From Rhodocytophaga rosea (GTDB lineage: Bacteria > Bacteroidota > Bacteroidia > Cytophagales > 172606-1), in NCBI RefSeq assembly GCF_010119975.1, contig NZ_CP048222.1:8842501-8906500 (forward strand): a DNA stretch of 64,000 nucleotides, in the 5' to 3' direction. The notes below the pieces were generated by a model. The model made no database searches, was not told the DNA's origin, and saw only the letters and a program-made list of their open reading frames with translations. The position numbers and the translations under genes were made by a program. This document shows positions 15,006 to 59,108 of the stretch, one piece after another. Within the stretch, counting starts at the first letter, position 1. Each line of letters opens with the position of its first letter.

Positions 15006-15034
15006 GGAGCCGATGCTCACAACGTAGCAGGTCC
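15006..15034 (-). repeat. Mini-hairpin insert 1 (29 bp)
   Basis: Begins GGAGCCGATGCTC and ends GTAGCAGGTCC. Outer arms GGAGCC/GGTCC and inner TGCT/AGCA pair around an 8-base loop. It sits at the OrfA-OrfB junction, between codons for QRLKETVEI and KKQWVSDLN, and introduces TAG. Strand is given relative to the consensus GGACCTGC...CATCGGCTCC. Confidence 0.8.
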
Positions 15035-15280
15035 AAAAAGCAATGGGTATCGGATCTTAACCGGGGCTTGATCTGGGATCCGCACGAATCGTCCCCAGTG
15101 AGATACCAATTCATTCATCAAAACCGGGGACAATATGGCCTGAAGAGGCTCTGTGAAGCAATGCAGGTGTCGTTAAGTGGGTACTATGGGTGGCGAAAGC
15201 GGCCAGAAAGCACCCGTAAGCAGGAAGATGAGCGTATAGTAGCTGCGATCAAGAAGGTTCATAAGCAAAGCCGGCAGACA

Positions 15281-15310
15281 GGACCCGATGCTGACATCGT
15301 CTGCTGGTCC
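15281..15310 (-). repeat. Mini-hairpin insert 2 (30 bp)
   Basis: Begins GGACCCGATGCTGAC and ends TCTGCTGGTCC, the most diverged copy. It separates SRQT from GSPRTYVDLIEKG in the OrfB frame. Outer arms GGACC/GGTCC are perfect; GATG/CATC pair internally. Confidence 0.75.
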
Positions 15311-15527
15311 ATGGAAGTCCTCGTACATATGTGGATCTGATTGAAAAGGGTATATCCTGCTCAGAGAAACGAGTGGCTAAACTAATGAGAAGCCATCAGA
15401 TTACCGCTAAACGAAAAAGAAAGTTTGTTGTCACTACCGATTCTAAACATGGCCTGCCCGTGGCTGAAAACAAACTTAATCAACAGTTTAGTGCTTTTAA
15501 GGCTGATGAAAAGTGGGTTACGGATAT

Positions 15528-15556
15528 GGACCTGCTACGTGTGCAGCATCGGCTCC
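15528..15556 (+). repeat. Mini-hairpin insert 3 (29 bp)
   Basis: Begins GGACCTGCTACGTGTG and ends GCATCGGCTCC. Arms GGACC/GGCTCC and TGCT/AGCA flank the loop ACGTGTGC. It splits the first catalytic Asp motif, WVTDI before and TYVWTREGW after. The same insert is present in element copy 2 at 43027-43055. Confidence 0.85.
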
Positions 15557-15817
15557 ACCTACGTATGGACCCGGGAAGGCTGGTTGTTCCTGGCAGTGGT
15601 ACTGGATTTGTTTTCTAGAAAATTAGTGGGTTGGGCGATGAATCAAAATATGGAAACAGGATTAGTAGTGAGTGCTTTGCAGATGGCTCTGCTGGCTAGA
15701 AGCCCACAGAAGGGCTTGCTACATCACTCTGATAGAGGCTCTCAGTACGCCAGCAACGATTACCAGAAACTGCTTAAAGACAACAAAATGATTTGCTCAA
15801 TGAGCCGGAAAGGAAAC

Positions 15818-15847
15818 GGACCTCAAATGCTCATGATGGGCAGGTCC
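15818..15847 (-). repeat. Mini-hairpin insert 4 (30 bp)
   Basis: Begins GGACCTCAAATGCTC and ends GGGCAGGTCC; the outer arms GGACCT/AGGTCC are a perfect 6-bp inverted repeat. It splits SRKGN from [10 protein letters not shown] next to the catalytic Glu. Also present in copy 2 at 42736-42765. Confidence 0.78.
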
Positions 15848-16126
15848 ATTATGATAATGCCTGTATGGAGAGCTTTTTTGCTACGCTTAAACAGGAACTG
15901 GTCTACCATCGCCAGTACCAGACCCGCAAGGAAGCCAGAGAAGATATCTTTGAATACATTCAGGTATGGTACAATCGAAAACACAATTGAGCCGGGAGGC
16001 GAAGATTGCGCCCGTAGGGAACACTCAAAGCTGGGCTACTTAAGTCCGGAACAATTTGAAACTAAAGGGCAGTATCAGATAGCTGCCTAGTCTTTTCTTA
16101 CCCTACACGAAAAAGGGGGAAACCCA

Positions 16127-16424
16127 TTTTGATATAAAGTCAGATAGTATGTTTTTTATTATTTTGTTATTGTTACTGTCGTCTGTTAGACATGCCACCA
16201 ATCTATCAAACATTTCCGTAAATCGGTCCAGCTGCGGTAAGGCCCTGTGCTGGGAAAAGACCCATTCTTGATACCCTGTTTACCAATTCCGATACAGCCT
16301 GTCAGTTCTTAACTTAATGTCCATTTTTTTGAGGGAAGACCAATTCTGTATTATTTTCTTATACAACTATTGGCCACTTAACCATCTAACAACTTGTAAA
16401 TGATCAGGATCCAACACCCTGCTT
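16127..16424. other. Intergenic stretch with an IS-end remnant
   Basis: No gene. CTTAACTTAATGTCCATTTT at 16308-16327 matches the terminal repeat of the IS3-family element at 54765-56016, so it looks like a solitary IS end left after decay. The remainder has no recognisable feature. Confidence 0.5.
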
Positions 16425-17861
16425 TTACTCTTTAACGGATGGCTCTTCACTTTTATGTTTATACTTGATATTGGTAAAATATAGGGTGAGCCCCATCTGG
16501 TCATTTTGGCTTTCCATCCACTGCACCATGTATTCTTTGAATGTGGTCAGTAATGGTTTGTTTTCCGGATTGGCTGCCAGGTTGGTTAGTTCATAGGGGT
16601 CACGCTCCAGGTCGTAAAGTTCCTCCGCCGGCCGATGCTGATAATTTGCCACCAATGCGGCTGCTTTCTTATCAGTTTTTGCTTTTTCTACCCAGCTTTC
16701 CCAATAATCACGCCCATCTTCGGGTTTAGCATTGGTAATATGAGTCGTGTAAGTCCGCTGTGGCTCCAGGTTTAGGATGTACTTATATTTTTTTGTACGG
16801 ATGCTGCGTATGGGAAAATAATTAAAATCTCCATAGAAGGTATCTGCTGTATAGGTAGAGTAGATCGTGTCGCGGTGGGTAGGTTTGTTTTCTAGCAGCA
16901 CAGGCAGAAAACTTTTTCCATCAAGGCCTTCCGGAACCTGACCTTCTGCTACTTCCAGCAGCGTAGGCAGGAAATCGACAAGTGGTAATAAAACAGAAGA
17001 GGTACTGCCTTTTTTTACTTTACCCGGCCAGCGGACAACCATCGGAATACGAATGCCTGCATCATACAAATTCCATTTGCCATGTGGCCACTGTGGGCCA
17101 TGATCTGAAATATAAATAAAGAGTGTATTGCTTGCTAGATCATATTTACTAAGCGATTGCAGACACTTGCCAAGTGTTTGGTCAACATCGGTTACATCAG
17201 TAAAATATTTAGCCCGTACCTGCCGGGTAATCTCAGTGTCCACCAGATAGGGAGGAAGGTCCACCTGCGCTGGCGTGTAGCCTTCACTCTTTGGCCAGGG
17301 CACATGTGGATTGTCGGTGGCTACTACCAGAAAGAGCGGTTTATTTGCTCCTTTGGCCTGGGCAGCAAAAATGGAATCTATTTTAGAATAGTCTTTGTCT
17401 TGCTTCTTGATATAGTGATAGGGATAGGCCGCTCTTGGCCACAGATGATCTTTGCCTGCCAGCACAGTGTGGTAGCCTAATTCCTGCATATAGACAGGCA
17501 GGGTTTTGATACCAGGGTTAATCTTGCTGTGATTGGGATGTGCCCCATTTCTGGCAGGCATTAGGCCAGTACTGATCACTGCTCTGGAGGGTACACAATT
17601 AGGGGTATTGGCAAATGCACTTGTAAAACGTATCCCTTCCTTGGCAAATGCATCCAGATTGGGTGTACGCACAACTTTCGCTCCATAACAGCCGGCATCT
17701 TCATAACCATGATCATCTGCGATGAAGAGCACAATATTAGGCTTTTTCGCAGGAGCCGTGTTGTTTCCTTTCAAAGATGAATCATGACCATAGCTCATCT
17801 TTGCCGGGAAAAGAATGATTGTTGAAATAATAAAAATGAATGCCTTATAGAGATATCTCAT
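16425..17861 (-). CDS. Exported sulfatase (type I, formylglycine)
   Basis: 478 residues with a signal peptide (hydrophobic 7-20) and the sulfatase core: KPNIVLFIADDHGYEDAGCYG supplies metal-binding Asp residues, and C89-V-P-S-R is the C-x-P-S-R signature whose Cys is converted to formylglycine. Further motifs are GKDHLWPRAAYPYHY, DNPHVPWP and YISDHGPQWPHGKWNLYDAGIRIPMVVRWPG, like heparan-N-sulfatase/iduronate-type enzymes that desulfate glycans. A maturase for the Cys is required and not in the window. The gene is single and lies between insertion sequences. Confidence 0.9.
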   Translation of the reverse strand: MRYLYKAFIFIISTIILFPAKMSYGHDSSLKGNNTAPAKKPNIVLFIADDHGYEDAGCYGAKVVRTPNLDAFAKEGIRFTSAFANTPNCVPSRAVISTGLMPARNGAHPNHSKINPGIKTLPVYMQELGYHTVLAGKDHLWPRAAYPYHYIKKQDKDYSKIDSIFAAQAKGANKPLFLVVATDNPHVPWPKSEGYTPAQVDLPPYLVDTEITRQVRAKYFTDVTDVDQTLGKCLQSLSKYDLASNTLFIYISDHGPQWPHGKWNLYDAGIRIPMVVRWPGKVKKGSTSSVLLPLVDFLPTLLEVAEGQVPEGLDGKSFLPVLLENKPTHRDTIYSTYTADTFYGDFNYFPIRSIRTKKYKYILNLEPQRTYTTHITNAKPEDGRDYWESWVEKAKTDKKAAALVANYQHRPAEELYDLERDPYELTNLAANPENKPLLTTFKEYMVQWMESQNDQMGLTLYFTNIKYKHKSEEPSVKE

Positions 17862-18227
17862 GGATGTGCATTAAGTTAAAAGGGTACTCCATAACAGATG
17901 TTTTAAAAATTTAAAGCTATATATGGTTAAATGATTAGATCAAGTTAGTATTTTTGTAATGGTTAAGCATCCAGGAATTTTTTAGCTAAAATTTATCCTT
18001 TGTTGATTTGTAGTTTTTCAGTTTGATGTTTGAATCTTGCAAAAATGTGCCTGCTGAAGTTTTCAAGCAGTGCTACCCGAGCATCCATAGTTTGATTCTC
18101 AATTCACAAGATAGAATCATAATGGCTTGAAACAAAATATTGATTTGCCTTTTGACCTTTGCTTTCCTAATGTTTATCAAAGGATTTGGGACTCATTTCA
18201 TTTTCAACTTAGGTTTAATGATCTCTA
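17862..18227. other. Intergenic stretch upstream of the sulfatase
   Basis: About 365 AT-rich bases with no gene. It must contain the sulfatase promoter. It ends at an FNR-type palindrome (18228-18241) that abuts an IS630 insertion. Confidence 0.4.
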
Positions 18228-18241
18228 TTGATTTATGTCAA
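18228..18241 (+). promoter_or_regulatory. Third FNR-type palindrome, next to an IS
   Basis: TTGATTTATGTCAA differs by one base from the boxes at 11423 and 13969 and shares the preceding TCTA with the former. The IS630 element begins only five bases further on, so any promoter to the right has been separated from its gene. Confidence 0.4.
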
Positions 18242-18265
18242 TTCTAGTGTTCTAGCAATTTAATT

Positions 18266-18943
18266 TCATGTATTAATTTTGCTAATTTCTATGTATCTGT
18301 TTTTTAGTTTTACACGAGCTTTCTCAGTTGTAAACGACCAGTTGACTTTTACCGCTTTTAGATTTCGATTCTTTTGCCAAATAAGAGTCTCGGATTCAAG
18401 TATTTCCTGATTTGCGATTCGTCTGTCTAAGCACTGGCGTGCAAGGGATGAAAATTCCATTTCTGCCATGTTTAACCACGAGCCGTGTTTAGGTGTAAAA
18501 TGGAATTCCAGCTTATTTTTGAGTTGCCGGGCCTCTTCGAAGGGTAAATTTTCATAAAATGCCCCATAGGAATGGGTTTGATAATTATCCTGAACAAGTT
18601 TGATTTTAGTTTCAGTTGGATAATGTTCTTTGACCACCCACTGCATAAAGTGGCTATAATCAGCTTTAGTTTTTGTGGTGGTAACCTTTATATGCCGTTG
18701 CCCGGTATCCATATTGTAAGCCAGTAGCACATTACAAACGCCATTTCTTAGGTATTCCTGATGTTGTTTTTGTGTGCAATTAGCTTTAGCCGGAATGGGT
18801 GTCAACACATGGTCAATAAGTTGACAAGGACGTTCATCAAAGCATAAACGGACAATCCCTTCCTCTTGAGGTTGAGCGTACAAATCTAAAACATCTTCCA
18901 TAGTGGCAACATATTCGCCATTGATGATACCAATGCACCACAT
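18266..18943 (-). CDS. IS630 transposase, DDE part (OrfB)
   Basis: 225 residues from the nominal ATG at 18943, but the frame is open further upstream (LKPWLKQMWCIG) and is probably reached by frameshifting from OrfA. DDE residues lie in LCFDERP, KLVQDNYQTH and HGSWLNMAEMEFSSL. The product cuts and pastes the element at TA sites. Nothing indicates inactivation. Confidence 0.85.
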   Translation of the reverse strand: MWCIGIINGEYVATMEDVLDLYAQPQEEGIVRLCFDERPCQLIDHVLTPIPAKANCTQKQHQEYLRNGVCNVLLAYNMDTGQRHIKVTTTKTKADYSHFMQWVVKEHYPTETKIKLVQDNYQTHSYGAFYENLPFEEARQLKNKLEFHFTPKHGSWLNMAEMEFSSLARQCLDRRIANQEILESETLIWQKNRNLKAVKVNWSFTTEKARVKLKNRYIEISKINT

Positions 18944-18948
18944 TTGCT

Positions 18949-19392
18949 TTAACCAAGGCTTAAGCCTGCTTTTTTTAAAACTTGCCGGATGGATTCATTG
19001 GATATAGTTTCAACATAGTTAAGTTCAACCATTTTTTGGTTCAATAAGGATAAAGTCCAACGGGCAGAGCCGGCAGGCGACTCACTACAAGCCATACTGG
19101 TAATCTGTGCTTCCAAGCGTTGTGTAACGATAGGGGGTTGACCACTTCTGGGGCGTTCTTCCAAAGCATTAGATAGCCCTCCGGCAAAGTATCGCTTTTT
19201 AATGCGATAATAATGGTTACTGTCGATGCCTAATTCTGATTGAACTTCAATCCTTGATTTACCTGAATTCATTAATAATAAGGCTCTTGCACGAGTTATT
19301 TTGCGACTCTTGTGCGTTCCTTTTTTTATAATTGAGCTCAGTTCGGTTTTTTCTGATTCTGACAAACTTACTTTAGTAGCGATCCGTGCCAT
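18949..19392 (-). CDS. IS630 transposase, DNA-binding part (OrfA)
   Basis: 147 residues with two helix-turn-helix segments (residues about 30-55 and 60-85) and the ERPRSGQPP linker typical of IS630. Near its end the codons TTA AAA AAA form an A7 slippery run; a -1 slip there joins the frame to OrfB (SRLKPWLKQMWC), giving a full-length transposase. The OrfA stop lies just before the OrfB nominal start. Confidence 0.85.
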   Translation of the reverse strand: MARIATKVSLSESEKTELSSIIKKGTHKSRKITRARALLLMNSGKSRIEVQSELGIDSNHYYRIKKRYFAGGLSNALEERPRSGQPPIVTQRLEAQITSMACSESPAGSARWTLSLLNQKMVELNYVETISNESIRQVLKKAGLSLG

Positions 19393-19447
19393 GAGAATAA
19401 AAAGTTTATCCTCAAAATTAATAACTAAAATTAAATTGCTAAAACAC

Positions 19448-19766
19448 TAGGAGCTGTAATTAATTTAATTTAATAGTCTTGAACTTAGTCTATCTTACAG
19501 CGTGATCTTAAATGACAATTAATCGAAAAGGTAGTTAATTAAACTCCCCTTTTTGGAAGAATTATAGTCCTAGTTATCTTAACTTATGGCCCACTCTTTT
19601 GAGGGATCTCCAAAAAATCTTCTTTAGATTATATGAATCCTGAAGAATACAAGCAGCATTGGCAACAACTACTATTGGTTGCTTAACCTACTCTCCTTTT
19701 TGAGGGAGGAACTCCAAATTTCAGTTACTTAATTAGTAGCACAAGTAGTAAGGCATACATATTCTG
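19448..19766. other. Intergenic stretch with possible transposase tail remnant
   Basis: At 19632-19685 a plus-strand string reads MNPEEYKQHWQQLLLVA followed by a stop, resembling the tail of an IS3-type transposase. Two related G/A-rich motifs (TTTTGAGGGATCTCC and TTTTTGAGGGAGGAACTCC) flank it, possibly decayed IS ends. No intact gene. Confidence 0.4.
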
Positions 19767-21785
19767 TTACCAGACGGTAATTCTCTCCTTTTCGGGTTTA
19801 TACATCTTGTCAGTAGCTTGCAGATTGAATGCTTTGTAGAAGGGTGTAAAGTTCATCAGTGGTCCATTAACCCGCCACTTGGCTGGTGAGTGTGGATTGG
19901 TGTTGACATACATGCGTAAAAACTCATCCCTTGTTTTTACCCGCCATATTCTGGCTACTGATATAAAAAAGCGCTGATCCGGTGTAAAGCCATCCAGTTT
20001 GGTCGTGTCTTGTCCTTGTGCCGTTAATTTAAAGGCATCATAGGCAATAGCAACACCTGCCATATCGGCTGTATTTTCACCCACTGTTAATGCGCCTTTG
20101 ATAGGCATCGAATCGAGCACAGTAAACGAATTGTACTGATCAATCACCTGTCCGGTTCTGGCTTTAAACTTTTCATAATCCTGTTTTGTCCACCAGTTTT
20201 TTACGTTGCCCTCTTTATCATATTGGGCACCCTGATCATCAAATGAATGGGTAATTTCATGACCAATCACCATACCAATACCGCCATAGTTCAGGGCATC
20301 ATCGGCATATAAATCGAAATATGGCGATTGTAAGATACCGGCCGGGAAAACAATCTCATTCAACGGAGGATTATTATAAGCCGTTACTGTGGGCGGAGTG
20401 GTGTGCCATTCAGTTCTGTCGACGGGCTTGCCTACTTTAGCCAGGCTATAGAGGTACTCATTTTTATTAGCGGATAAACAATTTTCAAAGTAGGTATTCC
20501 TTTTCACCTCCACTTTCGAGTACTCTCTCCATTTATCCGGGTAGCCGATTTTTTCAGAGAAAGCCCCTAGTTTTTCCTTCGCCTTTGTCTTGGTGGAATC
20601 GCTCATCCAGTCTAGATTATTGATGCGGGCTTCAAATGCTTTTTTCAGGTTGTCTACCAGTACAACCATGCGTTTCTTAGCTTCTTCAGGGAAGTATTTT
20701 TTTACATACAACTGTGCCAGCGCATGCCCGAGTGATTGGTCGACCACCTGTGTCATTTCTTCGGCACGTGTTTTTTTAACGGCTTGCCCGGTCAATATTT
20801 TTGTATAAGCAAAGGAGGCATCCACAAAAGGTTGGCTTAACCAGTTGGCATACGTGGATAGGGCATTGGCTTTTAAGTAGACTTTCCAATCGTTGACAGG
20901 AATGGTTTTTAACAAGGCATTTAGCTTCTCGTAGTAAGGTGGTTGACCCATGTTGAGCGAATCAACCTGTAGGCCTAGGTTGTTTAGTAAAGTGGTCCAG
21001 CCCAGGTTGGGATGTTTTTTTGAAAGATCACTCACCGCTACTTTATTGTAGTTGGCCTGCACATCCCTAAGCTCGATATTGGTCCGGTGGGCGGCCGCTA
21101 GTTGTTTTTCAATTTCATAGGCAACGCCTGCACTTTTCTTGGCTTGGGTTGAATCACTTCCGGTTAGGGCAAACAAGGTGGTCAGATATTGCTTATAAGC
21201 TATTTGGATCGCAAGGGTGGACGAATCGGTCTTGAAATAATAATCTCTTTCGGGTAAGCCGATCCCTGTCTGATAAAAGTGGGCAATATTTACAGTACTC
21301 TGTTTATCATCAGGACCCACATAAAAACCCATCAGGGAGGTATTCCCTACTTTTAGCTCTTCAACGGCCATTACTACCAATGAAGGTATATCGCTTATCC
21401 CATCGATGCGGGAAAACACCGGCTTAAGAGGTTCATAGCCCCGGTTATTAATGGCAGTTGTATCCATGCCTGAAGCATAAAAATCTGCTACTTTCTCTTC
21501 GATACTTCCGGAAGGGTTTTTACTTTTGGAAAGACTGTCCAGAATACCTTGCAGCCGGATGCGCTGGGGGAAATTCAGAAATGAATAAGAACCTACTCCT
21601 GTCTGACTAGCCGGTATCTGGATGGTATCGTACCAGATGCCGTTAACGTAAGTAAAAAAATCGTCGCCGGGTGTTTTAGATAAATCTATTCCAGTTAAGG
21701 CAACGTGTTTCGTATCGGTATCGGAAATCTTTTGGCAGGCTGCCGCTAATAACAGCACTAAAGAAAAATATAATAGTCTTATCAT
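19767..21785 (-). CDS. M13 family (neprilysin/PepO-like) zinc peptidase lipoprotein
   Basis: 672 residues. A lipoprotein signal ends LLAAA-C17. Gluzincin motifs are present near residue 507: VIGHEITHSFDDQGAQYD supplies the two zinc His and the catalytic Glu, and GENTADMAGVAIAYDAF supplies the third zinc ligand. NAYYNPPLNEIVFPAG-like (here TAYNNPPLNEIVFPAGIL) and the C-terminal P-x-x-x-x-x-VW are also family hallmarks. It cleaves short peptides at the cell envelope. Length is normal, start is the lipoprotein Met. The gene is single. Confidence 0.93.
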   Translation of the reverse strand: MIRLLYFSLVLLLAAACQKISDTDTKHVALTGIDLSKTPGDDFFTYVNGIWYDTIQIPASQTGVGSYSFLNFPQRIRLQGILDSLSKSKNPSGSIEEKVADFYASGMDTTAINNRGYEPLKPVFSRIDGISDIPSLVVMAVEELKVGNTSLMGFYVGPDDKQSTVNIAHFYQTGIGLPERDYYFKTDSSTLAIQIAYKQYLTTLFALTGSDSTQAKKSAGVAYEIEKQLAAAHRTNIELRDVQANYNKVAVSDLSKKHPNLGWTTLLNNLGLQVDSLNMGQPPYYEKLNALLKTIPVNDWKVYLKANALSTYANWLSQPFVDASFAYTKILTGQAVKKTRAEEMTQVVDQSLGHALAQLYVKKYFPEEAKKRMVVLVDNLKKAFEARINNLDWMSDSTKTKAKEKLGAFSEKIGYPDKWREYSKVEVKRNTYFENCLSANKNEYLYSLAKVGKPVDRTEWHTTPPTVTAYNNPPLNEIVFPAGILQSPYFDLYADDALNYGGIGMVIGHEITHSFDDQGAQYDKEGNVKNWWTKQDYEKFKARTGQVIDQYNSFTVLDSMPIKGALTVGENTADMAGVAIAYDAFKLTAQGQDTTKLDGFTPDQRFFISVARIWRVKTRDEFLRMYVNTNPHSPAKWRVNGPLMNFTPFYKAFNLQATDKMYKPEKERITVW

Positions 21786-22086
21786 GGTTTGAAGGTGGAA
21801 TAATCAGGATGTAAAGGTGAATTCTCGCTAAAATAAAGAATGTATCGATCCAAAGGGAAGTTTTAATGAGCTTAGCAGTAAAAAAAATTGTTTAATGGCT
21901 AAGCAGTTTGTGTATTAAAGGACAAAAAGTAGTGATGGGTCTTTCAAAATAATAGAAGGATAGAAAAGATCAGGCAACCATAGAATAGGACTGCAAAGTA
22001 CAACTACACCTGTCAGAGTTTACGACAGGATTACATGGTAAGCAATGCGATAAATCAACCCTTTTCATCCAAGCCTTTTTGTAATA
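21786..22086. other. Intergenic stretch, no feature recognised
   Basis: About 300 bases between the peptidase start and an IS630 copy. It must hold the peptidase promoter; I see no clear TAnnTTTG box. Confidence 0.3.
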
Positions 22087-22131
22087 AGTAAGAGTACACA
22101 ATTAAGTATAAGATTTTGGCAAATTGTATCT

Positions 22132-22536
22132 TTGCTTATACAAGACTTAGAGAAGATTCATAAAGATAGTAAAAGTTATCAGGAACGTAACCGTTGCCAA
22201 TGTATACTGTTATCCAATCAAGGCTATCAAGTACAGAAGTTAGCAAGCATTTTTCAAGTAAGTCAGTTAAGTATTTATAAGTGGTTTGATCGCTTTGAGA
22301 AAACAGGTGTGGTAGGGTTAAAGAACCAAAAAGGGAAAGGCAGAAAACCCATCCTTACTACCAGTAATGCTACCCATGTTGAAGTAGTGGAAAATAGCAT
22401 AGAGAAAGAAAAACAACAACTTAAATTAGCTAAGCGAGAGATAGAAGCTAAATTAGGCACGGCTATGAGTGAGATGACCTTGAAGCGGTTTTTAAAAAAA
22501 TTGACTACCGATGGAAACGTTTCCGTAAATGGATAA
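22132..22536 (+). pseudogene. IS630 OrfA lacking its native start
   Basis: Compared with the second copy, the bases encoding the ATG's last base through residue 11 (MRYIKKITDKQK...) are missing, so the frame begins only from a TTG (LIQDLEKIHKDSK). The helix-turn-helix body is otherwise intact, ending with the A7 slippery run at 22494-22500. Translation is doubtful because the promoter-to-ATG distance is tiny and the ATG is gone. Confidence 0.75.
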
Positions 22537-22541
22537 AGCCA

Positions 22542-23150: not shown

Positions 23151-23155
23151 TTACT

Positions 23156-23368
23156 TAGTATGCTTTTAGGTTTAAGTTTTGAAAAAGGGGTGATAAAATT
23201 TATCATCCCTTTCAAGAAGTTTGAAAAATGGGGTGAGAGGGGAAAGAATGCAACCTTTCAATTCTAAACTAGCCTTTTTCTCCCCCTTTTTACCTGTCAT
23301 TTATTACACTTAAAATTAAAGAGTGATTTTGTCAACCTGTAGCCGGACAAGGCCCTGGCGGATCAAAT
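23156..23368. other. Decayed intergenic DNA with a dispersed repeat
   Basis: A stretch around 23319-23358 (GTGATTTT GTCAACCTGTA .. CCGGACAAGG) is about 80 percent alike to 60491-60531. Both sit beside degraded IS material, so this is probably an old element end. Confidence 0.4.
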
Positions 23369-23869: not shown

Positions 23870-23913
23870 TTGATTGATAAGTAGAGAATTATAAAAATAA
23901 AAGAATTGCGAAA

Positions 23914-24407: not shown

Positions 24408-24440
24408 CTCCTCGCTATTTACTTTGAATACCTTTCTGCT

Positions 24441-40686: not shown

Positions 40687-41239
40687 GCCCTTTAGGGCAA
40701 GGCTTTAGCTTCTACAAATCTGTATTAGATTTGTGGGATGCAAAATTTACGAAAACCAATCCATAGTGTCCATCAGCTACAAGTGCATATTGTATGGAGT
40801 ACAAAGTATAGGTTTCAAGTATTGAAGGGGGAAATACAGATACGCTGTAGGGATTTAATACGTCAGAGTTGTGATCGTATGGATGTGCAGCTCTTAAAAG
40901 GGGTAGTAAGTAAAGACCATGTGCATCTGCATTTAAGTTATGCCCCAAAGCTGAGTATAAGTGAGATAGTGAAACCTTTAAAGGGGCGCAGTGCAAGAAT
41001 ATTGCTGGAAGAGTTTGGCGAGCTGCGCAAACGGTATTGGGGCGGTCATTTTTGGGGGATAGGCTATGGGGCATGGAGTAGTGGTAATATAACTGATGAA
41101 ATCATACAGGCTTATTTGGAGCATCACAAGGAGGACCCTAATGGTGATGAGAGTTTTATTCTTGAGTAGTTAATAGGCTTGAGCCTACATTCAAATGGCT
41201 TCAGCCACTGTTTTCAACCTATGGGTTTCTAACCCATAG
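40687..41239 (+). mobile_element. IS200/IS605-type element
   Basis: A single tnpA between hairpins: GCCCTTTAGGGC (40687-40698) and ACAAATCT-GTATT-AGATTTGT (40714-40734) on the left; TAGGCTTGAGCCTA (41174-41187), TGGCTTCAGCCA (41196-41207) and CTATGGGTT-TCT-AACCCATAG (41219-41239) on the right. Such end hairpins are the substrate of the HUH transposase. Exact ends are not defined. Confidence 0.8.
40738..41169 (+). CDS. tnpA: IS200/IS605 family transposase TnpA
   Basis: 143 residues. HUH motif H61-V-H63 (SKDHVHLHLSY) and catalytic Tyr126 (IQAYLEHHKED), with HIVWSTKYRF at the N terminus. It transposes single-stranded DNA through hairpin recognition. Intact length for the family; no tnpB accompanies it. 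The start overlaps the left-end hairpin by position (ATG 3 bases after it), which would restrain translation, a known trait of IS200. Confidence 0.92.
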   Translation: MQNLRKPIHSVHQLQVHIVWSTKYRFQVLKGEIQIRCRDLIRQSCDRMDVQLLKGVVSKDHVHLHLSYAPKLSISEIVKPLKGRSARILLEEFGELRKRYWGGHFWGIGYGAWSSGNITDEIIQAYLEHHKEDPNGDESFILE

Positions 41240-42735: not shown

Positions 42736-42765
42736 GGACCTGCCCATCATGAGCATTTGAGGTCC
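42736..42765 (+). repeat. Mini-hairpin insert 4, copy in element A copy 2
   Basis: Same 30-base hairpin as 15818-15847, at the homologous transposase position (GGACCTGCCC...TTTGAGGTCC on the plus strand). Confidence 0.78.
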
Positions 42766-43026: not shown

Positions 43027-43055
43027 GGAACCGATGCTGCACACGTAGCAGGTCC
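43027..43055 (-). repeat. Mini-hairpin insert 3, copy in element A copy 2
   Basis: Homologous to 15528-15556 with one change in the arm (GGAACC instead of GGAGCC on the plus strand), at the same WVTDI/TYVW position. Confidence 0.8.
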
Positions 43056-50529: not shown

Positions 50530-50553
50530 ATGATTAAATAGTATGTGGTGTAA

Positions 50554-51237: not shown

Positions 51238-52310
51238 TCTTCAAGGCATTTAAGTAAGAAGTCTCTGCAGGTATTTCAATAGTAAATTTCGCTCCTCCCT
51301 CCTGCTTATTTGTTAAACCCACTTTCCCATCATGTGCTTCCACAAAACCTTTGACGATAGAAAGGCCTAAGCCTGTCCCACTACTGGTGGTTCCTTCCAG
51401 TCTGTAAAATTTATCAAACACCTTATCAATGGTAGAAAGGGGAAATCCATTGCCAGTATCACTGACCACAAGCAATAACAGATCATCCTGGCAGCTTGCT
51501 TCAATAGTGATTTGGGAGTTAACCGGAGTATATTTAACGGCATTCTCAACTAAATTCAACAGTACATGTTCCATCATGGCATAATCTATCTTGAATAAAG
51601 GAAGCGTAGCAGGTATCGAAACCTTGATCGAATGATGAGAGCCCAATGTCTATCTTTTTGAGCATGTTGTAAACAAGTTCATGGATATCACACCAATCTT
51701 TGTGCGGCCTTACAAATCCTGATTGGATTCTTGAAATACTCAGTAAGTTGCTTACCTGTTGATTAAGCCGTAAAGCAGCCAGAGATATTTCCTCTACTAA
51801 CAACTCTTTATTATTGTCAGAAATATTAACCTCCCTTGACAGGAGGTTGTCAGAGGCACCAATAATGGTGGCAATAGGAGTTTTTAGTTGATGGGAAAGA
51901 GAAGTAATGAGTGTATCGTATAATTGCAGGCTTTTTTCTTTTTCCTCTTTTAATCTTGCCTGTTTTTGTACTTGCCTGATCTTAAAAGTTAAAACAGCAT
52001 TTAATAAGGAAATGACAAAGTACATTAAGAGCATGAGCCTATCTTCTGTCTGACCGATTGAAAAAGTAAATCTGGGAGGAATGAAAAAAAAGTCCCAGAT
52101 AAAAGCACTTAGCAGGGCAGCAAGCAGGACAGCCGTAATATCGAAGAACATGGCAAGTAAAGAAACGCTCATCATCAGTAGCAAAGCCACTACCCGATAC
52201 CCAATCAGGTCCGATAAAGTAAAGCTCAGCCCCCCTACAAAGCAAACAAGCAAAAAACTGATCAGGTATTGCCTTTTTTTACTCAACTCAGTTATAAACA
52301 AATTAGCCAC
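51230..52310 (-). pseudogene. kdpD: KdpD-like sensor kinase, frameshifted
   Basis: Starts at GTG 52310 close behind its promoter. Four membrane helices of the DUF4118 domain (about 14-110), HisKA with H140 in SLSHQLKTP, then HATPase (NLVENAVKYTP, DTGNGFP, GTGLGLSIVKGF). An extra G in ATTGGGCTC (plus strand CCC at 51642-51644) shifts the frame between KKIDIG and SHHSIKVSIPATLPL, before the ATP-binding domain. The N-terminal KdpD/universal-stress sensor region of proteobacterial KdpD is absent; the short form is normal in Bacteroidota. A homopolymer sequencing error is an alternative to true mutation. Confidence 0.85.
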
Positions 52311-52334
52311 CTATGTTGATTTATTTGTCTTACA

Positions 52335-52400
52335 AAGATGCTGATAAGATTATAAAGAAATTATAAAGAAGTTAATGGGAGTATAAAGAAATTATAAAGA
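52335..52400 (-). promoter_or_regulatory. kdpD promoter with two KdpE-like operators
   Basis: On the minus strand two identical 17-mers TTTATAATTTCTTTATA (52400-52384 and 52369-52353) start 31 bp apart, three helical turns, and a minus-7-like CATCTTTG (52342-52335) follows. TTTATA-N5-TTTATA closely resembles the E. coli KdpE operator TTTATA-N5-TTTACA. The proximal site takes the place of a minus-33 element, as expected for an activator. Confidence 0.75.
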
Positions 52401-52765
52401 TGAGCTGCAATTCAATTGTATTCTTCACAAAGATTATACACTTACAAGATAGTAGGCACACATAGGCTTGCAGATTTTGGAAGATAGATTTATTTTCTTT
52501 GTATCCTTGTGCCGGCTTCTTCCTTTTAGGAATTTACTAGATTACCACGCTAGAAAGGAGATTAAGGTAAGCAACTTATGAAAGTTGTTACCAATTTTGT
52601 TCATATCCTTCAGAACTAATACAGGCTAAAAATAAGAATGTTTCTTTTTGCTGTTTTACCACGCTTTGGCCCTGGTACTTTTAACCGGATGGTAAGCTAC
52701 GCACTATTAGATAAGCTAAATCTGAAGATTAGAGTTAACTGAAAGGGGAATTAACTTAACTGCAT
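52401..52765. other. Intergenic stretch upstream of kdpD
   Basis: About 365 bases with no gene or repeat recognised. It separates kdpD from the small gene ending at 52766, both on the minus strand. Confidence 0.4.
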
Positions 52766-53017
52766 TCATTTCATAACTTGATCATCCAGGACGAGAGCAA
52801 TAGCTTCAAGCAAGCCAATATCTATTTTTTCTCCTTTTTGTAAAGCCTCTAATTCTGCTACAGCTCTATATTTCCCTTCTTCATCTGCTTCATACATCAT
52901 CTGCCTTCCGGAAACATCTACTACGATTTTATAACTGTAGCTATATGATAATATTTTAGCCTTAAAACATAAGTGTTCCCCTTTATAATCTACAGGTATT
53001 TCCAAGATCTCGTCCAT
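52766..53017 (-). CDS. Small conserved Cytophagales protein, unknown function
   Basis: 83 residues: MDEILEIPVDYKGEHLCFKAKILSYSYSYKI, a beta-rich first half, then a helical acidic end (AVAELEALQKGEKIDIGLLEAIALVL). Similar small proteins with this beta-then-helix order are common in Cytophagales genomes; no function is known. Single gene. Confidence 0.65.
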   Translation of the reverse strand: MDEILEIPVDYKGEHLCFKAKILSYSYSYKIVVDVSGRQMMYEADEEGKYRAVAELEALQKGEKIDIGLLEAIALVLDDQVMK

Positions 53018-53136
53018 AAGCTAAATCTACCCCTACTTTGTCTGATCTACAAATTAGACATGGACTTATTTTACCCCAGATAAACATCCTCTGTACTCAT
53101 AAGTAAAACTTAATGGCAAGTAAGAGAGTGATAGTT

Positions 53137-53955
53137 TTAATCTTTAATGTACTGTAAATAACGCTCTGCTGACCTTTGTAGAGCAGTTTTAGCATTTTTT
53201 TCTATGGTGCTGCGCCTCCACCAGGCACCATAGATACGATCATAGGTAAAAGGCTCAACGGCACTAACAATCTTCTTTACCTTAGAAGCAGACAAAGGAA
53301 TCAGATTAGGATAACTATACATAAAGCTGACATGCTTACGATCGGCAACTACCTGGATGATATCCCCTGTCAATAATACCCCTTTCCCGGCAGCACCAGC
53401 AGGCCAATGCAAAACAACCCCTCCCTGAAAGTGTCCACCACAGCGTATCAAGGTGAGTTCTGTCAGTATTTGTAAAGTTTCTCCTTGCCAATACTCAATA
53501 CACTTATCCGCACGCATGACATAGGAACGATCATCTTCATGTAAATAAATAGGAATATTACCAAAAGCCTGACTCCATTCTACCATGGTTGTGTAGTAAT
53601 GGGGATGTGAAATAGCGATGGCTGCTAGTCCACCCAAACCTGCAATAATATCTAGAGTTGCCTCATCTAGCAAACTGATACAATCCCAAAGCAGATTCCC
53701 TGAAGGGGTACGCACTAGTAAAGCCCTTTGTCCGATGCCAAATTCAGGTACAGTTCCTATGCCATATAGGTCTTCCTCCTTTTTGAGAAAGCAATTCTTA
53801 TGGCTATTTCTTAGTTTTTGCAGGCTTGTCCATTGCTGTCCGCCTACCGGCAGATATTGACGTTCATCTTCACAAATAGGACAAGAGTTTGGTGGAGTCA
53901 GAGAGGGGCTAAATTGAGTTCCACAAGTAATACAAATGTAGGAAGCAGAAGCCAT
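53137..53955 (-). CDS. MBL-fold metallo-hydrolase with N-terminal zinc ribbon
   Basis: 272 residues. N-terminal C9-I-T-C12 and C27-P-I-C30 form a rubredoxin-like zinc ribbon. The body has a metallo-beta-lactamase layout: ISHPHYYTTMVEW at the usual HxHxDH position (variant H-P-H-Y-Y-T), CGGHFQGGVVLHW and LLTGDIIQV. The altered first motif means metal binding is uncertain. The family is found across bacteria without assigned substrate. Not in an operon. Confidence 0.75.
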   Translation of the reverse strand: MASASYICITCGTQFSPSLTPPNSCPICEDERQYLPVGGQQWTSLQKLRNSHKNCFLKKEEDLYGIGTVPEFGIGQRALLVRTPSGNLLWDCISLLDEATLDIIAGLGGLAAIAISHPHYYTTMVEWSQAFGNIPIYLHEDDRSYVMRADKCIEYWQGETLQILTELTLIRCGGHFQGGVVLHWPAGAAGKGVLLTGDIIQVVADRKHVSFMYSYPNLIPLSASKVKKIVSAVEPFTYDRIYGAWWRRSTIEKNAKTALQRSAERYLQYIKD

Positions 53956-54029
53956 AGAATTAACTATAGTAAAACAATAATATCAGTGACGCAAATTGAG
54001 AGTTTATTTAATTTCCCTTTGGGGTAACA

Positions 54030-54470
54030 CTACTTTGAAGATTCCTTAATGTAACTATTTCTCCCATTTTTAATAATAAATACAAGTAGCACCTTAGCAG
54101 CCTTAGATGCATTGGTATTTTTAGTCAGCGAGTGTAACACGTTGCGTTTCTCATAGAACATTTTTCCTTCTCCAAAGGCGACGGGCTCTTTTTTGTCTAG
54201 CCCAATCAATACCTCCCCTTCTAATATATAGCCGAATATTTCACAATCATGGCGATGCGCAATGGTATCTGTTGCCCCTGGCGCTAGTGTCAGGATGGAG
54301 GATTCAACTTTGAACTCTTTCAGCTGGGGGTCACTGAGCATTTGTGAGAGTACTGGGGAGAAACTCAAAGGCTCCTCCTTAGTGCTTTCTTTCGTGGAAT
54401 GATGTTGGCCTTTAACTGGTGCAGCAAGTAGAAGGAGAAATACCATCAATATAGTCAGGGATACGTTCAT
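54030..54470 (-). CDS. Exported cupin-domain protein
   Basis: 146 residues from the Met at 54470, which places the signal peptide (MNVSLTILMVFLLLLAAPVKG) at the N terminus; an in-frame Met 22 codons upstream would bury it. Single cupin barrel: IAHRHDCEIFGYILEGEVLIGL holds the H-x-H-x4-E-type metal ligands and FYEKRNVLHSLTKN the C-terminal His. Periplasmic cupins of this type are often annotated as quercetinase-like or sensing proteins; substrate unknown. Confidence 0.82.
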   Translation of the reverse strand: MNVSLTILMVFLLLLAAPVKGQHHSTKESTKEEPLSFSPVLSQMLSDPQLKEFKVESSILTLAPGATDTIAHRHDCEIFGYILEGEVLIGLDKKEPVAFGEGKMFYEKRNVLHSLTKNTNASKAAKVLLVFIIKNGRNSYIKESSK

Positions 54471-54764
54471 ATAATATGCGTTTAGGATTGGTTTGCTTTT
54501 TTCTTCAATCATTTCTTGGGTAAACTTATTAGGCAATTATTTAACCTTTATAGCGCAGATATCACAAAAGCGAGTAGTCCGGTATATTGCCTTTTCAACA
54601 CCTGATCCCTTTAAACAAAAAAACTTACTGGACTTTTCTCGAAAAAGTGGATGATAAGTTAAGCGCTTAATGATAGTAAATTTGTAATTAAATGAAAAGC
54701 TATGATTATGTTTTAGAACATATGTTTATGTTAAAAATTATTCCCTGGACTTGCAACAAAATAG
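54471..54764. other. Intergenic stretch with a solo IS end
   Basis: GTGGATGATAAGTTAAGCG at 54647-54665 resembles the terminal repeat of the adjacent IS3 element, in the same orientation as that element's left end but about 120 bases outside it. No gene. Confidence 0.5.
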
Positions 54765-54775
54765 TGGACAATAAA

Positions 54776-55978
54776 TTAAGCTGTGTTTTGATGTTGATTT
54801 AATAATTTTTCCATTTGAGCAGTGCTCCTGTATCCTAAAGCAGAATGTAGCCTTTTTCGATTGTAAAACACTTCCAGATATTCAAAGATAACCACTCTGG
54901 CTTCTTGCTGATTAGCAAAACTTGAACTGTAAACACACTCTGTCTTTAAAGTTTTAAAGAAACTTTCTGCTACTGCGTATCCCAACAGTACCTTTTCGAC
55001 TCATGCTTTGACTGATAACAGGAACTAGCTTTAGCTGACCTCTAAATTCTTCAGAACCATACTGTACGCCACGGTCTGAGTGAAAGATTAATGGGTGTAC
55101 AACAGGCCTATTTTTCAAGGCCATATGCAAGGCTGCTACTGTAGTAACCCTTGTTTGCATTGTAGTGCTTAAGGCCCAGCCTACAACCTTTCTATCTGCC
55201 AGGTCCATTATTATAGTCAAATAAAGCCTGCCTGTCATAGTTTTTATATAGGTGATATCTGATACCCAGGCCTATCCTGTAGCTGCGGCTGAGAAGTTGC
55301 GATCTAACAGGTTATCACTTACCATGTAGTTATGTATTGAATCTGTTGTCACTTTAAATCTTCTTGTCTGTTTTGTTCGCAAGTGAGCTTTTTTCATTAG
55401 ACGAGCCACTCTTGGTCTTGATACAGAAAAAGAATTAATTTTTAATTGCTACCTGATCCTAGGGCTGCCATATGTACACTTACTATCTACATATATCTCT
55501 GTGATCTTTTTACTAAATTGCTCATTTTCAATATCTCGCATAGAAGGTTTGTTTTTAAGATAGGCATAGAATTCGCTTTTGCTCACTTTCAGTACATTGC
55601 ACATCATCTCAATGGGAAATAAGATTTTATGGTCCTTTATGAAGCGGAAGATTTCCCATCGTTCCTGGAGAAGATGCTTACGGCCTTTTTTGGACCTGCC
55701 TACGTTGTGAGCATCGGCTCCATATCGCGTTCAAGTTCTGCTACCCGTAATTGCTTTTTAAGTAAGGCTATTTCTGCTTCTTGTGCGGTAAGTTTGGGCT
55801 TGCCATGACCAGGAAAACCGCCTTCTTTCTTGTCCAGATATTCTTTACGCCAGCGATAAATTAAATCCGGACTTATATCTAATTCTCTGGCTAGCTGGCC
55901 ATAATCTGTACGGCTCTTGCTTAACTCTACGGTCATGAGCTTAAACTCTTTATCAAATTTTCTTCTTCCTTGGGGCAT
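54776..55978 (-). pseudogene. IS3 element B transposase, disrupted
   Basis: OrfA (MPQGRRKFDKEFKLMTVELSKS, helix-turn-helix, leucine zipper ALLKKQLRVAELERD) is stopped by the hairpin insert at 55692-55721. OrfB (FIKDHKILFPIEMMCNVLKVSKSEFYAYL, WVSDITYIKTMTGRLYLTIIMDLADRKVVGWA, HSDRGVQYGSEEFR) has a TAG at about 55274 and two single-A losses near 54987 and 54996 in [20 protein letters not shown]. Not functional. Confidence 0.85.
55692..55721 (+). repeat. Mini-hairpin insert 5 (30 bp)
   Basis: Plus strand begins GGACCTGCCTACG and ends GAGCATCGGCTCC. It lies in IS3 element B between codons for AELERDI and the AAAAAAG slippery string at the OrfA-OrfB junction, the same functional position as insert 1 in the unrelated element A. 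Confidence 0.82.
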
Positions 55979-56036
55979 ACGATTAGGTTACAATTTTTCG
56001 CTTAACTTAATGTCCACTTCAATGTAGCAGGTTCAC

Positions 56037-56846
56037 TTATGCGTTTATTTGACTCATGATCAATTTATCGATTTGCTTGTCGGATAGAATCCTTCTCAAA
56101 AATAACAAAAGTGAAGAGGCCATTTGTGAAGTGGTATATCTTGTTTTTAGGCTTTTTGCTTCTATTCCTTTCCTGACAAGGTTAGCTATCACGATTGGCT
56201 CCACAACATCCTTAGATAGACGGGTAAATACATGGTGTGTTTTAGTGGCCAGTTCTTTATAAGCGGTATGTCCCGATACTTTCAGGAGAATATCGGTTGC
56301 AACATTGCCCCATTCGGATTGAGTAGCTCCCAACGATCACATCGATACCGAATTCCCTGACTTCATTTCGCATACTATCGCTCAAGGCCTCCAGGGCAAA
56401 CTTGCTGGCATGATACCACCCCTTAGTGGAAAAGCAATTTTACCCCCAACAGAGGAAATGTTAACAATCTTAACGTATGTATTTTCCCGCATTTTGGGCA
56501 GTACCAGTTGTGCTAAACGCATGGCACCACATACATTTACTTCGAGTTGATAACATGCCTCTTCCATAGGTATGTCTTCAATGGAACCTTCCAAACCAAA
56601 GCCTGCCTTGTTAACTAAAATTTCAATGCTTCCTGCCTGTTTGAAAATTTGGTTTTTAGCCTCCTTCACACTTTCTTCTTTTGTAATTTCCAAGGCAATG
56701 GGTTGGATGCCGTAGGCTTTCAGGTCTTGCATTTTTTCCGATCTGCGTGCAGCCCCATACATCTGGTAGCCGTTTTGTGCTAAATAAATTGCGGTTGCTT
56801 TGCCAATTCCTGCCGAAGCGCCTGTAACAAAAACTGTCTTTTTCAT
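56037..56846 (-). pseudogene. SDR oxidoreductase, frameshifted
   Basis: Starts MKKTVFVTGASAGIGKATAIYLAQNG (cofactor loop T-G-A-S-A-G-I-G) and includes ILVNKAGFG and NISSVGGK. Near 56415 bases are lost in the LRGG-W-YHASKFALEAL active-site segment, and near 56325 a loss of about 8 bases removes IEP of the PG motif before GATQSEWGNVA. The rest runs to SQINA. Retinol-dehydrogenase-like SDR; inactive. Confidence 0.85.
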
Positions 56847-57085
56847 ATCTATAAAATTTATAGTACAAAGATGCATTGGCCTTGCCAGGCGTAGTTTGTT
56901 GAAAAGTTCAAGTTTTAATGCTGAAAAGGTCAAAGCTGACTTACCCTTTAAAAGCTGAAAGTAAACAAGAGAGCAGATTTGAATTTACAATCGGGAGTTA
57001 ATTATAAGGGGAGAATAAATTGGCTGATTTCTAATCCTTTTCCAATCCTGCTCAGCCATATACGCTAGTGAATCGGTCATAGCTT

Positions 57086-57544
57086 TTATGATTGTAAAAA
57101 CGCTTTCATTTGATGAGGCATCGGATAACTCCCTTGCATTCTTCTCATCAGCACTACTTCACCTAAGTGAAAAGAAAGATGCATGGCTAGTTCTTGAATG
57201 ATTTTTAACTTATCTGTTACATCTTCATCTGAAGCTGATAGCAAATCTACTACCCTTTCTATGTCCTGCAATTGCTTTTTAAACTTCTCCACCCCTTCTT
57301 GTAAGATGGCTTCACTGGGTGGGACTATTTCGCTAACCCAAGTATCTACTTCACTAAGGTGCTTTTCTGGAATAGCACCTTGCAAACAGCCTATTTGATA
57401 AGCTTGCCAGGCAATTAAATGATTGAGTATTTGCCAGACACTGGTGGGAAATTGATCCTGAAAAGCACCACTGTTTGCAACAGTTAAATTGTCAAATGCT
57501 TTGTAAGTATCAAATACATCCTTAAATATAGACTTATTCATCAT
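57086..57544 (-). CDS. DinB family protein
   Basis: 152 residues, four-helix DinB/YfiT-like bundle with the metal-binding His pattern: HLIAWQ (helix 2) and H-L-S-F-H-L-G-E (C-terminal helix). The family includes thiol-dependent and damage-inducible metalloproteins; the substrate here is unknown. Single gene, intact. Confidence 0.85.
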   Translation of the reverse strand: MMNKSIFKDVFDTYKAFDNLTVANSGAFQDQFPTSVWQILNHLIAWQAYQIGCLQGAIPEKHLSEVDTWVSEIVPPSEAILQEGVEKFKKQLQDIERVVDLLSASDEDVTDKLKIIQELAMHLSFHLGEVVLMRRMQGSYPMPHQMKAFLQS

Positions 57545-58227
57545 TATTTCTTCCCTTTATGCTTCTGTACTAAAGGTTCACACTCATCCGGCCGAGTATA
57601 GTATGGTGATCAAAGGAGGCAGGAGGGTCGAATTTAGTTTGTGCCCGGCATGGAAGGTACATTTGAAGGAAAGGTACCATTATTATCCAAGGGGTGCAAG
57701 TATCCAGTATGTGAACCTGGCCTGATTGGTAGCCTGCAAAAATTAGGCTTCCTCCTTATAAAGTTGAATGATTTACCTTTTGCAGGCTACTTTTATAAGT
57801 AAATAGAAGGTCAAAGGGAGAATTATTATATATGGCATCAATGGATTCAAGCAGAGATACCTCCTTCCTATTGAGTAGTTTCAAGAAAGGGTGGTTAAAT
57901 TAACCTCACATTTTGAATTACTCCCAATTGTGATGGTTTTTCTTCTTACTGCCTGACCGAAAAATGGGGTATGACACCATAAGGCGTTAAAAAAGGGGGT
58001 TAGGTTTGCATTTGGCTCCCTATATCCTCACCTGGATACTTTTGGTAGGTAAACCCGAAAAATACATCCTTTTCCAAAGGTGCTTTCCACTTGGGTTCTC
58101 TATCCAGCTTGATGAAGCATTTTTTGACCAGGTAGAGGCCTACCCAGAGCCTTGTACATGGGAATGTAATCGCTTGAAGAGGGAAAATAACTGCTTTTGC
58201 TATTCCGCACTTAATTCTAATCCATTA
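57545..58227. other. Intergenic stretch with a long-range inverted repeat
   Basis: GTAGCCTGCAAAA (57729-57741) and its reverse complement (57778-57790) form a 13-bp stem with a 36-base loop. An open frame at 58006-58245 (79 codons, plus) runs into the IS5 end and shows no family features; it may be a relic. No supportable gene. Confidence 0.45.
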
Positions 58228-58319
58228 GAAGGTGTTTGGAAATAGAAGAGAGGTTTTTTAGGATTTTGGAAAAAGACTATCAGCCGGTAACTTGAGTTTG
58301 CGAAACAAAAAGTTACTCC

Positions 58320-59108
58320 ATGTATGAATTACATGAAAATCTGACTGATAGTCAATGGCAAGTTATTAAAAACATAGTAGATGATGGACGAAAGAGAAAA
58401 GTTTGTTTAAAGCGTGTAGTGGATGCCTGCCTGTGGCTGACCAGAACCGGAAGTCAGTGGCGGAATTTGTCTCAGACCCATTATCCTGTATGGCAAACGG
58501 TAGCTTATTATTTTTATAAGTGGCAAGATAATGGGGTCTGGCAACAAGTGCGGGCGATGTTAGTGAAAAAGGAACGAGAAAGACAGGGACGACAAGCAGA
58601 GCCTTCCAGAGTGGCTATTGATAGCCAAAGTGTTAAACAGTGTGGTTGCTTTTCTGAGCAGGTAGGTGTAGATGGTAATAAGAAAATAGATGGTAGGAAA
58701 CGGCATTTGGCGGTTGATAACTTAGGACTTCCCTGGGCTGTTTATGTAGGAGCTGCTAATGAGTCTGATGCCGTAGCAGGCTTTGAATTATTACCACAAC
58801 TCAAAAGCTGTAGACGGCTAAGTTTGATCTGTGCCGATGCAGCTTATAAAGGTGAGTTTGTCTCTTATGCTTATTATTATGGGTGGAAAGTAGACATCTC
58901 ACAAAAGCCTCCTTCCAAGCAAGGATTTATTCCTCAAAAGGGAAGGTGGCAAGTGGAAAGATCTGGACCTGCTACGAGTGTGCATCGGCTCCATGCCTGG
59001 CTGAATCATTATCGAAGATTAGCTAAAGATTATGAAAGAACTCCTGCTTCTGCTGTCTGTTTTATAGAATTAGCTTTTATCAATATCATTTTATCAAAAA
59101 TACCTTAA
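58320..59108 (+). CDS. IS5 transposase with nine-residue hairpin-encoded insertion
   Basis: 262 residues. DDE: AIDSQSVKQCG, LICADAAYKG and the Glu of GRWQVERS. Directly after VERS the protein reads GPATSVHRL before HAWLNHYRRLAKDYE, whereas IS5 relatives run VERS/T-H/Y-A/G-W-LN without a gap (compare the element at 41886). The insert is in frame, so the gene is open, but it lies next to the catalytic Glu and probably impairs activity. Confidence 0.88.
   Translation: MYELHENLTDSQWQVIKNIVDDGRKRKVCLKRVVDACLWLTRTGSQWRNLSQTHYPVWQTVAYYFYKWQDNGVWQQVRAMLVKKERERQGRQAEPSRVAIDSQSVKQCGCFSEQVGVDGNKKIDGRKRHLAVDNLGLPWAVYVGAANESDAVAGFELLPQLKSCRRLSLICADAAYKGEFVSYAYYYGWKVDISQKPPSKQGFIPQKGRWQVERSGPATSVHRLHAWLNHYRRLAKDYERTPASAVCFIELAFINIILSKIP
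58965..58992 (+). repeat. Mini-hairpin insert 6 (28 bp)
   Basis: Begins GGACCTGCTACGAGTG and ends GCATCGGCTCC. Net addition is 27 bases if the final C belongs to the target, giving an in-frame insertion in the IS5 transposase. Confidence 0.82.

Follow-up and report, generated by a model that had tools for sequence, protein, structure and literature searches.

Short hairpin insertions in transposase genes of Rhodocytophaga rosea as probable mobile mini-elements

Several kinds of short hairpin-forming DNA have been described in mitochondria and bacteria. The byps of Magnusiomyces capitatus mitochondria are short mobile hairpins in coding sequence, with takeoff and landing codons, that are skipped in translation, and the double-hairpin elements and GC clusters of fungal mitochondrial DNA are palindromes of tens of nucleotides (nt), diverse in sequence, conserved in structure and mobile without a known enzyme. 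The small dispersed repeats (SDR) of Nostoc, about 21–27 nt long, are inserted precisely by an unknown mechanism. Rickettsia palindromic elements measure 105–146 bp, are fused in frame in conserved genes and are translated (PMC2229807), and repetitive extragenic palindromes (REP) and REPIN sequences are palindromes of 20–40 nt that are thought to be mobilised in trans by TnpA-REP (PMC8266576; PMC3116915). The present analysis concerns a stretch of 64,000 nt of the Rhodocytophaga rosea genome (contig NZ_CP048222.1, positions 8,842,501 to 8,906,500; hereafter the window), in which hairpins of 28–30 nt occupy eight places within the transposase genes of insertion sequences (IS). These hairpins are insertions into transposase coding sequence, and we judge, with a probability of roughly 0.58, that they belong to a population of mobile, structure-recognised and site-preferring mini-elements of about 16–34 nt that as a rule inactivate the IS transposases they enter.

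The pattern GGACC-N15..24-GGNTCC matches the window six times (shuffled mean 0.33) and GGACC-N15..24-GGTCC three times (shuffled mean 0.18), with 0/100 shuffles giving as many in either case; the hairpin at 15281 satisfies both patterns, hence eight places in total. Four of them lie in one IS3-family transposase region on the plus strand (approximately 14760..16090, from Pfam): a type B hairpin of 29 nt at 15006..15034 (minus strand) at the EI|LKK site of orfA, referred to below as the DILKKA position; a type B hairpin of 30 nt at 15281..15310 (plus) at RQT|YGSPR; a type B hairpin of 29 nt at 15528..15556 (plus) at VTD|ITYVWT, which we take to be the first catalytic Asp of the IS3 transposase; and a hairpin of 30 nt at 15818..15847 (plus) at RKGN|(C)YDNA, presumably just before the catalytic Glu. 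Empty homologues align straight through the junctions of all four sites, and the comparison shows one nt replaced by the hairpin at 15281 (empty in loci L108 and L109), at 15528 (empty in L062, L109 and L136) and at 15818 (empty in L062 and L136), and one (against L108/L109) or two (against L136/L062) at 15006. A broken second copy of this IS3, 99.7% identical over 367 nt, repeats the 15818 insert at 42736..42765 and the 15528 insert, with one substitution, at 43027..43055 (both minus). The second IS3 type lies on the minus strand (approximately 54817..55980; orfB has stop codons) and holds a type B hairpin of 30 nt at 55692..55721 (plus) at DI|LKKA, found at the identical position in four further related IS3. 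An IS5-type transposase (approximately 58310..59108, plus, from Pfam and empty-copy comparison) holds a type B hairpin of 28 nt at 58965..58992 (plus) at VERS|xAWLN; its empty counterpart, L210, lies elsewhere in the R. rosea genome and has an in-frame stop of its own. Since the IS5 insert is open, in frame and without a stop, with a net length of 27 nt, it may simply be translated. Host genes match rve/HTH_21/HTH_Tnp_1 and DUF4096/DDE_Tnp_1 of Pfam, and the IS family names are our assignment from these matches and from recall. A preliminary description of this DNA had placed all eight hairpins correctly, and what it had said of the repeats in the second copy, of hairpins in both orientations and of hosts that are all transposases of two IS3 types and one IS5 is likewise borne out; relative to the host gene, too, both directions occur. 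The first IS3 gene has, towards its 3′ end (approximately 15985..16020, plus), a further insert of another type (GC-rich, TTGAGCCGGGAGG...), missing from homologues L062 and L081, and Rfam gives 0 matches above the gathering score in the window.

Across the fetched loci, 260 comparisons of filled with empty copies at 98 sites show a net loss of one host nt in 130, of two in 39 and of none in 23, the remaining 68 giving other values whose scatter is partly alignment noise. Target-site duplication, a trait of miniature inverted-repeat transposable elements, was seen at none of the sites read, where usually one nt is lost instead. Net lengths include 16, 20, 23, 28, 29 and 31 nt, which are not multiples of three, and also 27 and 18; type C (27 nt) corresponds to a net +29 and the TTGACC type to a net +23. 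At 12 hand-picked sites the coding strand has mostly lost a T, irrespective of the direction of the element, as judged only where the codon allows it and with a weak case at the third position of DITY. Exceptions are 15006 (where L108/L109 have an A), the GWA site, which lacks 1, 2 or 3 nt, and an HPT|QI site in G004, a metagenome-assembled genome (MAG) with probable indels. This orientation-independent bias suggests a step on mRNA or on an exposed coding strand.

An identical type A 30-mer, GGACCTGAAATAAGATTTCATCTTAGGTCC, is present in an IS1182 and an IS3 of R. rosea (G000; 8.98 Mb, single contig) and in another rve transposase of Rhodocytophaga aerolata (G001; an isolate assembly), and its occurrence in unrelated IS of two species argues that the elements move. 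Across 12 loci of IS1182, at least eight positions are filled in mosaic fashion, with exact empty sites alongside (automatic counts miss some, for example an insert of L217), and four positions are each restricted to one family in every filled lineage seen, namely GERLP to type A, GSGQN to type B, SYHP to the TTGACC hairpin and YRHYH to type C. One family per position was considered as a general rule and rejected, as it holds for these four positions only. In IS3, the DILKKA, RYGS, DITY, GWA and GN positions recur across diverged IS. The DILKKA insert occurs in 5/5 members of one IS3 group, contiguous in a tree given without support values, and is identical in four and altered by two changes in the fifth, with flanks near saturation (synonymous divergence, dS, about 2); identity despite diverged flanks indicates that the insert is strongly constrained or that it has arrived at this site repeatedly. 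At 55692–55721 and in L001, L009, L004 and L267, five related IS3, the DILKKA insert puts an in-frame TAG immediately before a run of A, presumably the orfA/orfB slippery site.

The inserts comprise several hairpin families of about 16–34 nt. Type A has the scaffold GGACC-T-a-AT-b-AT-a'-AT-b'-A-GGTCC, in which the triplets a and b are followed by their complements, that is, a closing stem around two interleaved helices (a-b-a'-b'). Over eight distinct 30-mers, from which the structure itself was derived, 97.9% of cells pair, 15 cells carry two-sided changes (shuffled mean 4.7; 0/500) and the covariation score is 0.423 against a shuffled 0.137 (0/500 for both score and pairing), and a one-column slide of the partners lowers pairing to 44–62%. 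Four 32-mers were left out of this test because the aligner misplaced their gap, and type B was aligned and not counted; the order of type B (GGACC-TGC...GCA-TCGG-N-TCC) resembles that of type A by eye only. For six of the eight window copies the minimum-energy fold does not surpass that of shuffled sequence (z −0.37 to 0.22); it does so for the copies at 15281 (z −1.89) and 15818 (z −2.46) alone. Some copies are altered at both ends together (GAACC...GGCTTC), and shorter hairpins with TTGACC, CTGAGC, CGGATG or TGGAGC stems occupy further sites of these transposase genes. The imperfect palindrome described beforehand is thus retained in its GGACC...GGNTCC ends, but its single stem with one bulge is replaced by several families and, in type A, by interleaved helices. 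The IS1182 gene of L214 (G001:C140:6000-10500) contains at least eight inserts from different families, including one of 48 nt with the appearance of one hairpin nested inside another, and in L101, L114 and L076/L200 of G004 type B hairpins sit inside or beside other GGACC hairpins, for which reason the elements may target each other. A likeness to domain V of group II introns was weighed by eye and dropped.

In the whole R. rosea genome the strict type B pattern has 28 copies (0 for the control), and a covariance model gives 54 matches, 50 with E < 1, from 150 scored out of 809 first-pass candidates. GGACC-N-GGTCC occurs at 47 places, of which 35 fall within or next to frames for transposases or integrases (of rve, DUF772, Transposase_mut and DDE_3 type), two of them (2399211 and 8969103) assigned by neighbourhood; the count alone proves nothing because the reversed-pattern control is more frequent, with 268 matches. 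Sorted by eye with the hosts known, 36 of the 47 are folded and 11 not, and the 12 places outside transposases comprise 11 without a fold and one folded (7601227, L085); an automatic rule (inner inverted repeat of at least 4) agrees with this sorting in 38/47. As far as the pattern scan shows, ordinary DNA is not equally dense in hairpins; equal density was an outcome that the preliminary description had named as refuting it. Among seven relatives of the family, the model yields 9 matches in G001, 8 in G002 and 30 in G004 at E < 0.1, and no match with E < 1 in G003, G005, G006 and G007; raw GGACC-N-GGTCC counts, by pattern alone, in G003 and G005 are 5 and 12. Besides R. rosea, copies are present in R. 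aerolata and two Cytophagales MAGs. The hosts are for the most part transposases, and by Pfam they fall into six types or more (rve, DUF4096/DDE_Tnp_1, DUF772, DDE_3, Transposase_mut and other DDE_Tnp_1). The strict pattern is found in 2/59 genomes, R. rosea itself among them, and a genome-collection scan with the type B pattern only gave 71 matches, of which 18 are genuine by context (14 in YX2bin28, 1 in YX1bin7 and 3 in R. aerolata records). A broader spread was rejected, the other 53 being different DNA by their flanks (32 represent one recurrent clostridial reading frame), and a viral-contig collection gave 0 matches.

The state of the filled genes was assessed from similar copies that share inserts, leaving out the codons around insert sites. 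Two filled IS3 pairs of G002, L106-L107 (7/8/8 differences at codon positions 1/2/3 over 149 codons; ratio of nonsynonymous to synonymous divergence, dN/dS, 0.74) and L222-L225 (10/9/12 over 228 codons; dN/dS 0.48), are even when pooled (17/17/20), and the intact IS3 pair L260-L261 has 40/21/82 (dN/dS 0.14). Unique changes are distributed as 29/36/17 in L214, 13/14/8 in L121 and 29/31/27 in L113, all filled, and as 10/5/13, 4/4/13 and 8/6/12 in the intact L230, L231 and L232, in a test that favours positions 1 and 2 because the other rows must agree; lightly filled copies are mixed (L119 10/1/24, L215 6/6/15, L221 5/1/6, L217 8/6/8, L227 1/4/2, L089 3/4/3, L015 5/3/3). Deep IS comparisons give dN/dS of 0.08–0.37 for most pairs with finite dS, a span that may predate the inserts, and two IS5 pairs of G004 are higher (0.42 and 0.58). 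The third-position share in G004 is 0.35–0.37 for IS5, 0.40–0.49 for IS4-like and 0.44–0.52 for IS630 elements; one close IS630 pair of G004 shows 2/1/1, and two IS5 subgroups of G000 show 2/0/3. Several filled copies bear additional stops or frame shifts. In the eight-copy IS3 L001/L265 (at G000:C1:44703-45199 and in seven other places), insertion at DITY (net 29) shifts the orfB frame, and a one-nt change about 80 nt downstream resets it, with an open frame of 345 amino acids in 7/8 copies. The R. rosea genome also contains intact relatives (IS1182 L231; IS3 L260 and L261) and rve genes with unbroken frames of 294 amino acids in up to eight equal copies (not read individually), so that filled IS could be mobilised in trans. 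The argument that multiple copies mean function is weakened by the intact L231, L260 and L261 and by the extra frame change of the eight-copy IS3.

Under the reading that we prefer, a mini-element would enter the coding sequence of an IS transposase, strongly preferring certain sites, and would, as a rule, inactivate the gene. Its hairpin structure would be the feature recognised by a mobilising protein or RNA, the other types would share the fold of type A (judged by eye only), and filled IS, probably dead for the most part, would be carried by related transposases or have been filled after spreading. The mobile mini-element in transposases that had been proposed beforehand is upheld by the empty sites, the shared 30-mer and the 35/47 places, and the earlier interpretation as a whole in part; it missed the several families, the strong recurrence of positions in diverged IS, the usual loss of one nt and the point that a filled gene is more likely dead than tolerant of a byp-like insert. 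A number of observations weigh against the preferred reading. The target consensus at the 12 hand-picked sites is no stronger than a weak Y[T]R, with exceptions; the IEANL position of IS1182 holds two hairpin types, and IS3 positions hold mixed families (B and another at RYGS, A and others at GN). In type A, two of the five covariation measures do not rise above the shuffled level, namely pairs with two-sided change (4; shuffled 2.9) and pair types (7; shuffled 7.0). Type-B-like hairpins at 7601227–7601256 (L085) and 7399510–7399539 (L268) lie in frames without a Pfam transposase match, and a search that covered Y1 transposases only found no mobilising enzyme. L119, with three inserts, has unique changes of 10/1/24, indicating purifying selection on its branch, and L215-L221, with one insert in common, differ by 39/16/84; we tentatively read this selection as preceding insertion. 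Finally, all near-identical copies are filled in an IS5 (7/7), one IS3 (8/8), one IS1182 (5/5) and one IS256 (3 copies), which suggests that filled copies may still spread.

A bolder interpretation, which we regard as unlikely, would see a programmable-looking family, its scaffold fixed and its covarying triplets free to vary, that would home to the catalytic motifs of transposase genes; it would serve either as anti-transposon silencing or as excisable bacterial elements, of mini-intron or bypass kind, smaller than any known. Removal of the hairpins at the RNA level (mini-intron) or skipping by the ribosome as in byps, with functional transposases and self-spreading filled IS, is unlikely, and it retains some probability because the near-identical multi-copy IS just named are all filled (5/5, 7/7 and 8/8). 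In the multi-copy families a skip one nt shorter than the hairpin usually keeps the frame, and in one IS3 clade such a skip at DILKKA would join orfA to orfB directly; the 30-mer of that clade is identical in 4/5 members with flanks at dS about 2, and most pairs of IS from these families with finite dS have a low dN/dS (0.08–0.37). That a constant skip of hairpin length minus one proves splicing was nevertheless dropped, as the insertion mechanism alone suffices to explain it and the skip required at the GWA site varies (r=0, 1 and 2 in L007, L106 and L068). Moreover, the one-nt change of the eight-copy IS3 resets the frame that the DNA itself has past the DITY insert and not the one that a skip would give, and the shared-insert pairs L106-L107 and L222-L225, together with L214, look neutral.

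It is less probable still that a host or plasmid defence against transposons installs short hairpins at catalytic motifs, with many families for many targets. The many Pfam types (at least six) among hosts that are chiefly transposases, identical elements at identical sites in diverged IS and positions at or adjoining DITY, GNxYDNA, VERS and ADGGFGSGxN, which we take to be catalytic motifs of transposases, would fit such a system, but conserved motifs are equally just conserved DNA targets, hairpins also sit inside or beside one another, and no candidate locus is known from a search that went no further than Y1_Tnp. Complementarity between insert and flank, as expected of a guide, was not seen: a loop-to-target guide was rejected when the longest insert-flank match within 40 nt averaged 5.44 for own and 5.20 for other flanks (78 contexts), and the 8–9 bp matches noted at first between inserts and their own flanks are no commoner than with other flanks.

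That a Y1 transposase of the IS200/IS605 type moves the hairpins as non-autonomous elements, the mechanism suggested for REPs, is very unlikely. Y1_Tnp is found in all four genomes with inserts and in neither G003 nor G005, but G006 and G007, both without an insert match at E < 1, have it as well; perfect hairpins near four Y1 genes are unlike GGACC...GGTCC, and a fixed 5′ flank was not seen. To our knowledge, the loss of a nucleotide is not expected of Y1-type elements. The link to a Y1 transposase was accordingly set aside as unsupported, given its presence in unfilled genomes and the dissimilar flanking hairpins. The window itself has an open IS200/IS605-type Y1 transposase gene at about 40765–41124 (146 amino acids). 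A sequencing or assembly artefact, or native transposase sequence, is hardly credible, even with a repetitive setting and with G004 a MAG with probable indels, since related but different copies with compensatory changes occur in a single-contig genome, an isolate assembly and two MAGs and homologous transposases without hairpins exist in the R. rosea genome and in related ones; the proposed mobility is not refuted by a native origin.

If the elements are mobile as we suppose, they would be among the smallest mobile DNA known (16–34 nt), with precise insertion, a covarying two-helix fold and recurring transposase codons, and their movement would need an enzyme or pathway that could not be named. 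Dead filled genes would make them a natural brake on insertion sequences, expressed ones a bacterial mini-intron or bypass, and either outcome is directly testable in a cultured soil genus.

No description of such transposase-inserted hairpins was found in a literature search, which left most subscription papers outside. REP and REPIN sequences are likewise small palindromes of similar length, but they are mainly extragenic with a tagged end, whereas here 35/47 pattern places are in transposases; a cognate Y1 transposase flanked by matching hairpins, a trait of REP and their RAYT transposases, was not found at the four Y1 loci. Rickettsia palindromic elements are also palindromic insertions within reading frames, but the present inserts are of 16–34 nt, mostly out of frame and in transposases, the IS5 insert being open and in frame. 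Nostoc SDR, compared by description, are bacterial and similar in size and precision of insertion, and we know of no report that they are confined to transposases or have an interleaved-helix fold. Byps are similarly short mobile hairpins in coding sequence, many per gene, and matching takeoff and landing codons were absent from the few contexts inspected here by eye; unlike byps, the present elements are bacterial and mostly in transposases, and their filled genes look mostly dead. The double-hairpin elements and GC clusters of fungal mitochondrial DNA resemble them in size, in palindromes and in a structure kept over sequence, and differ in belonging to another domain of life and in their locations, which here are mainly transposase motifs.

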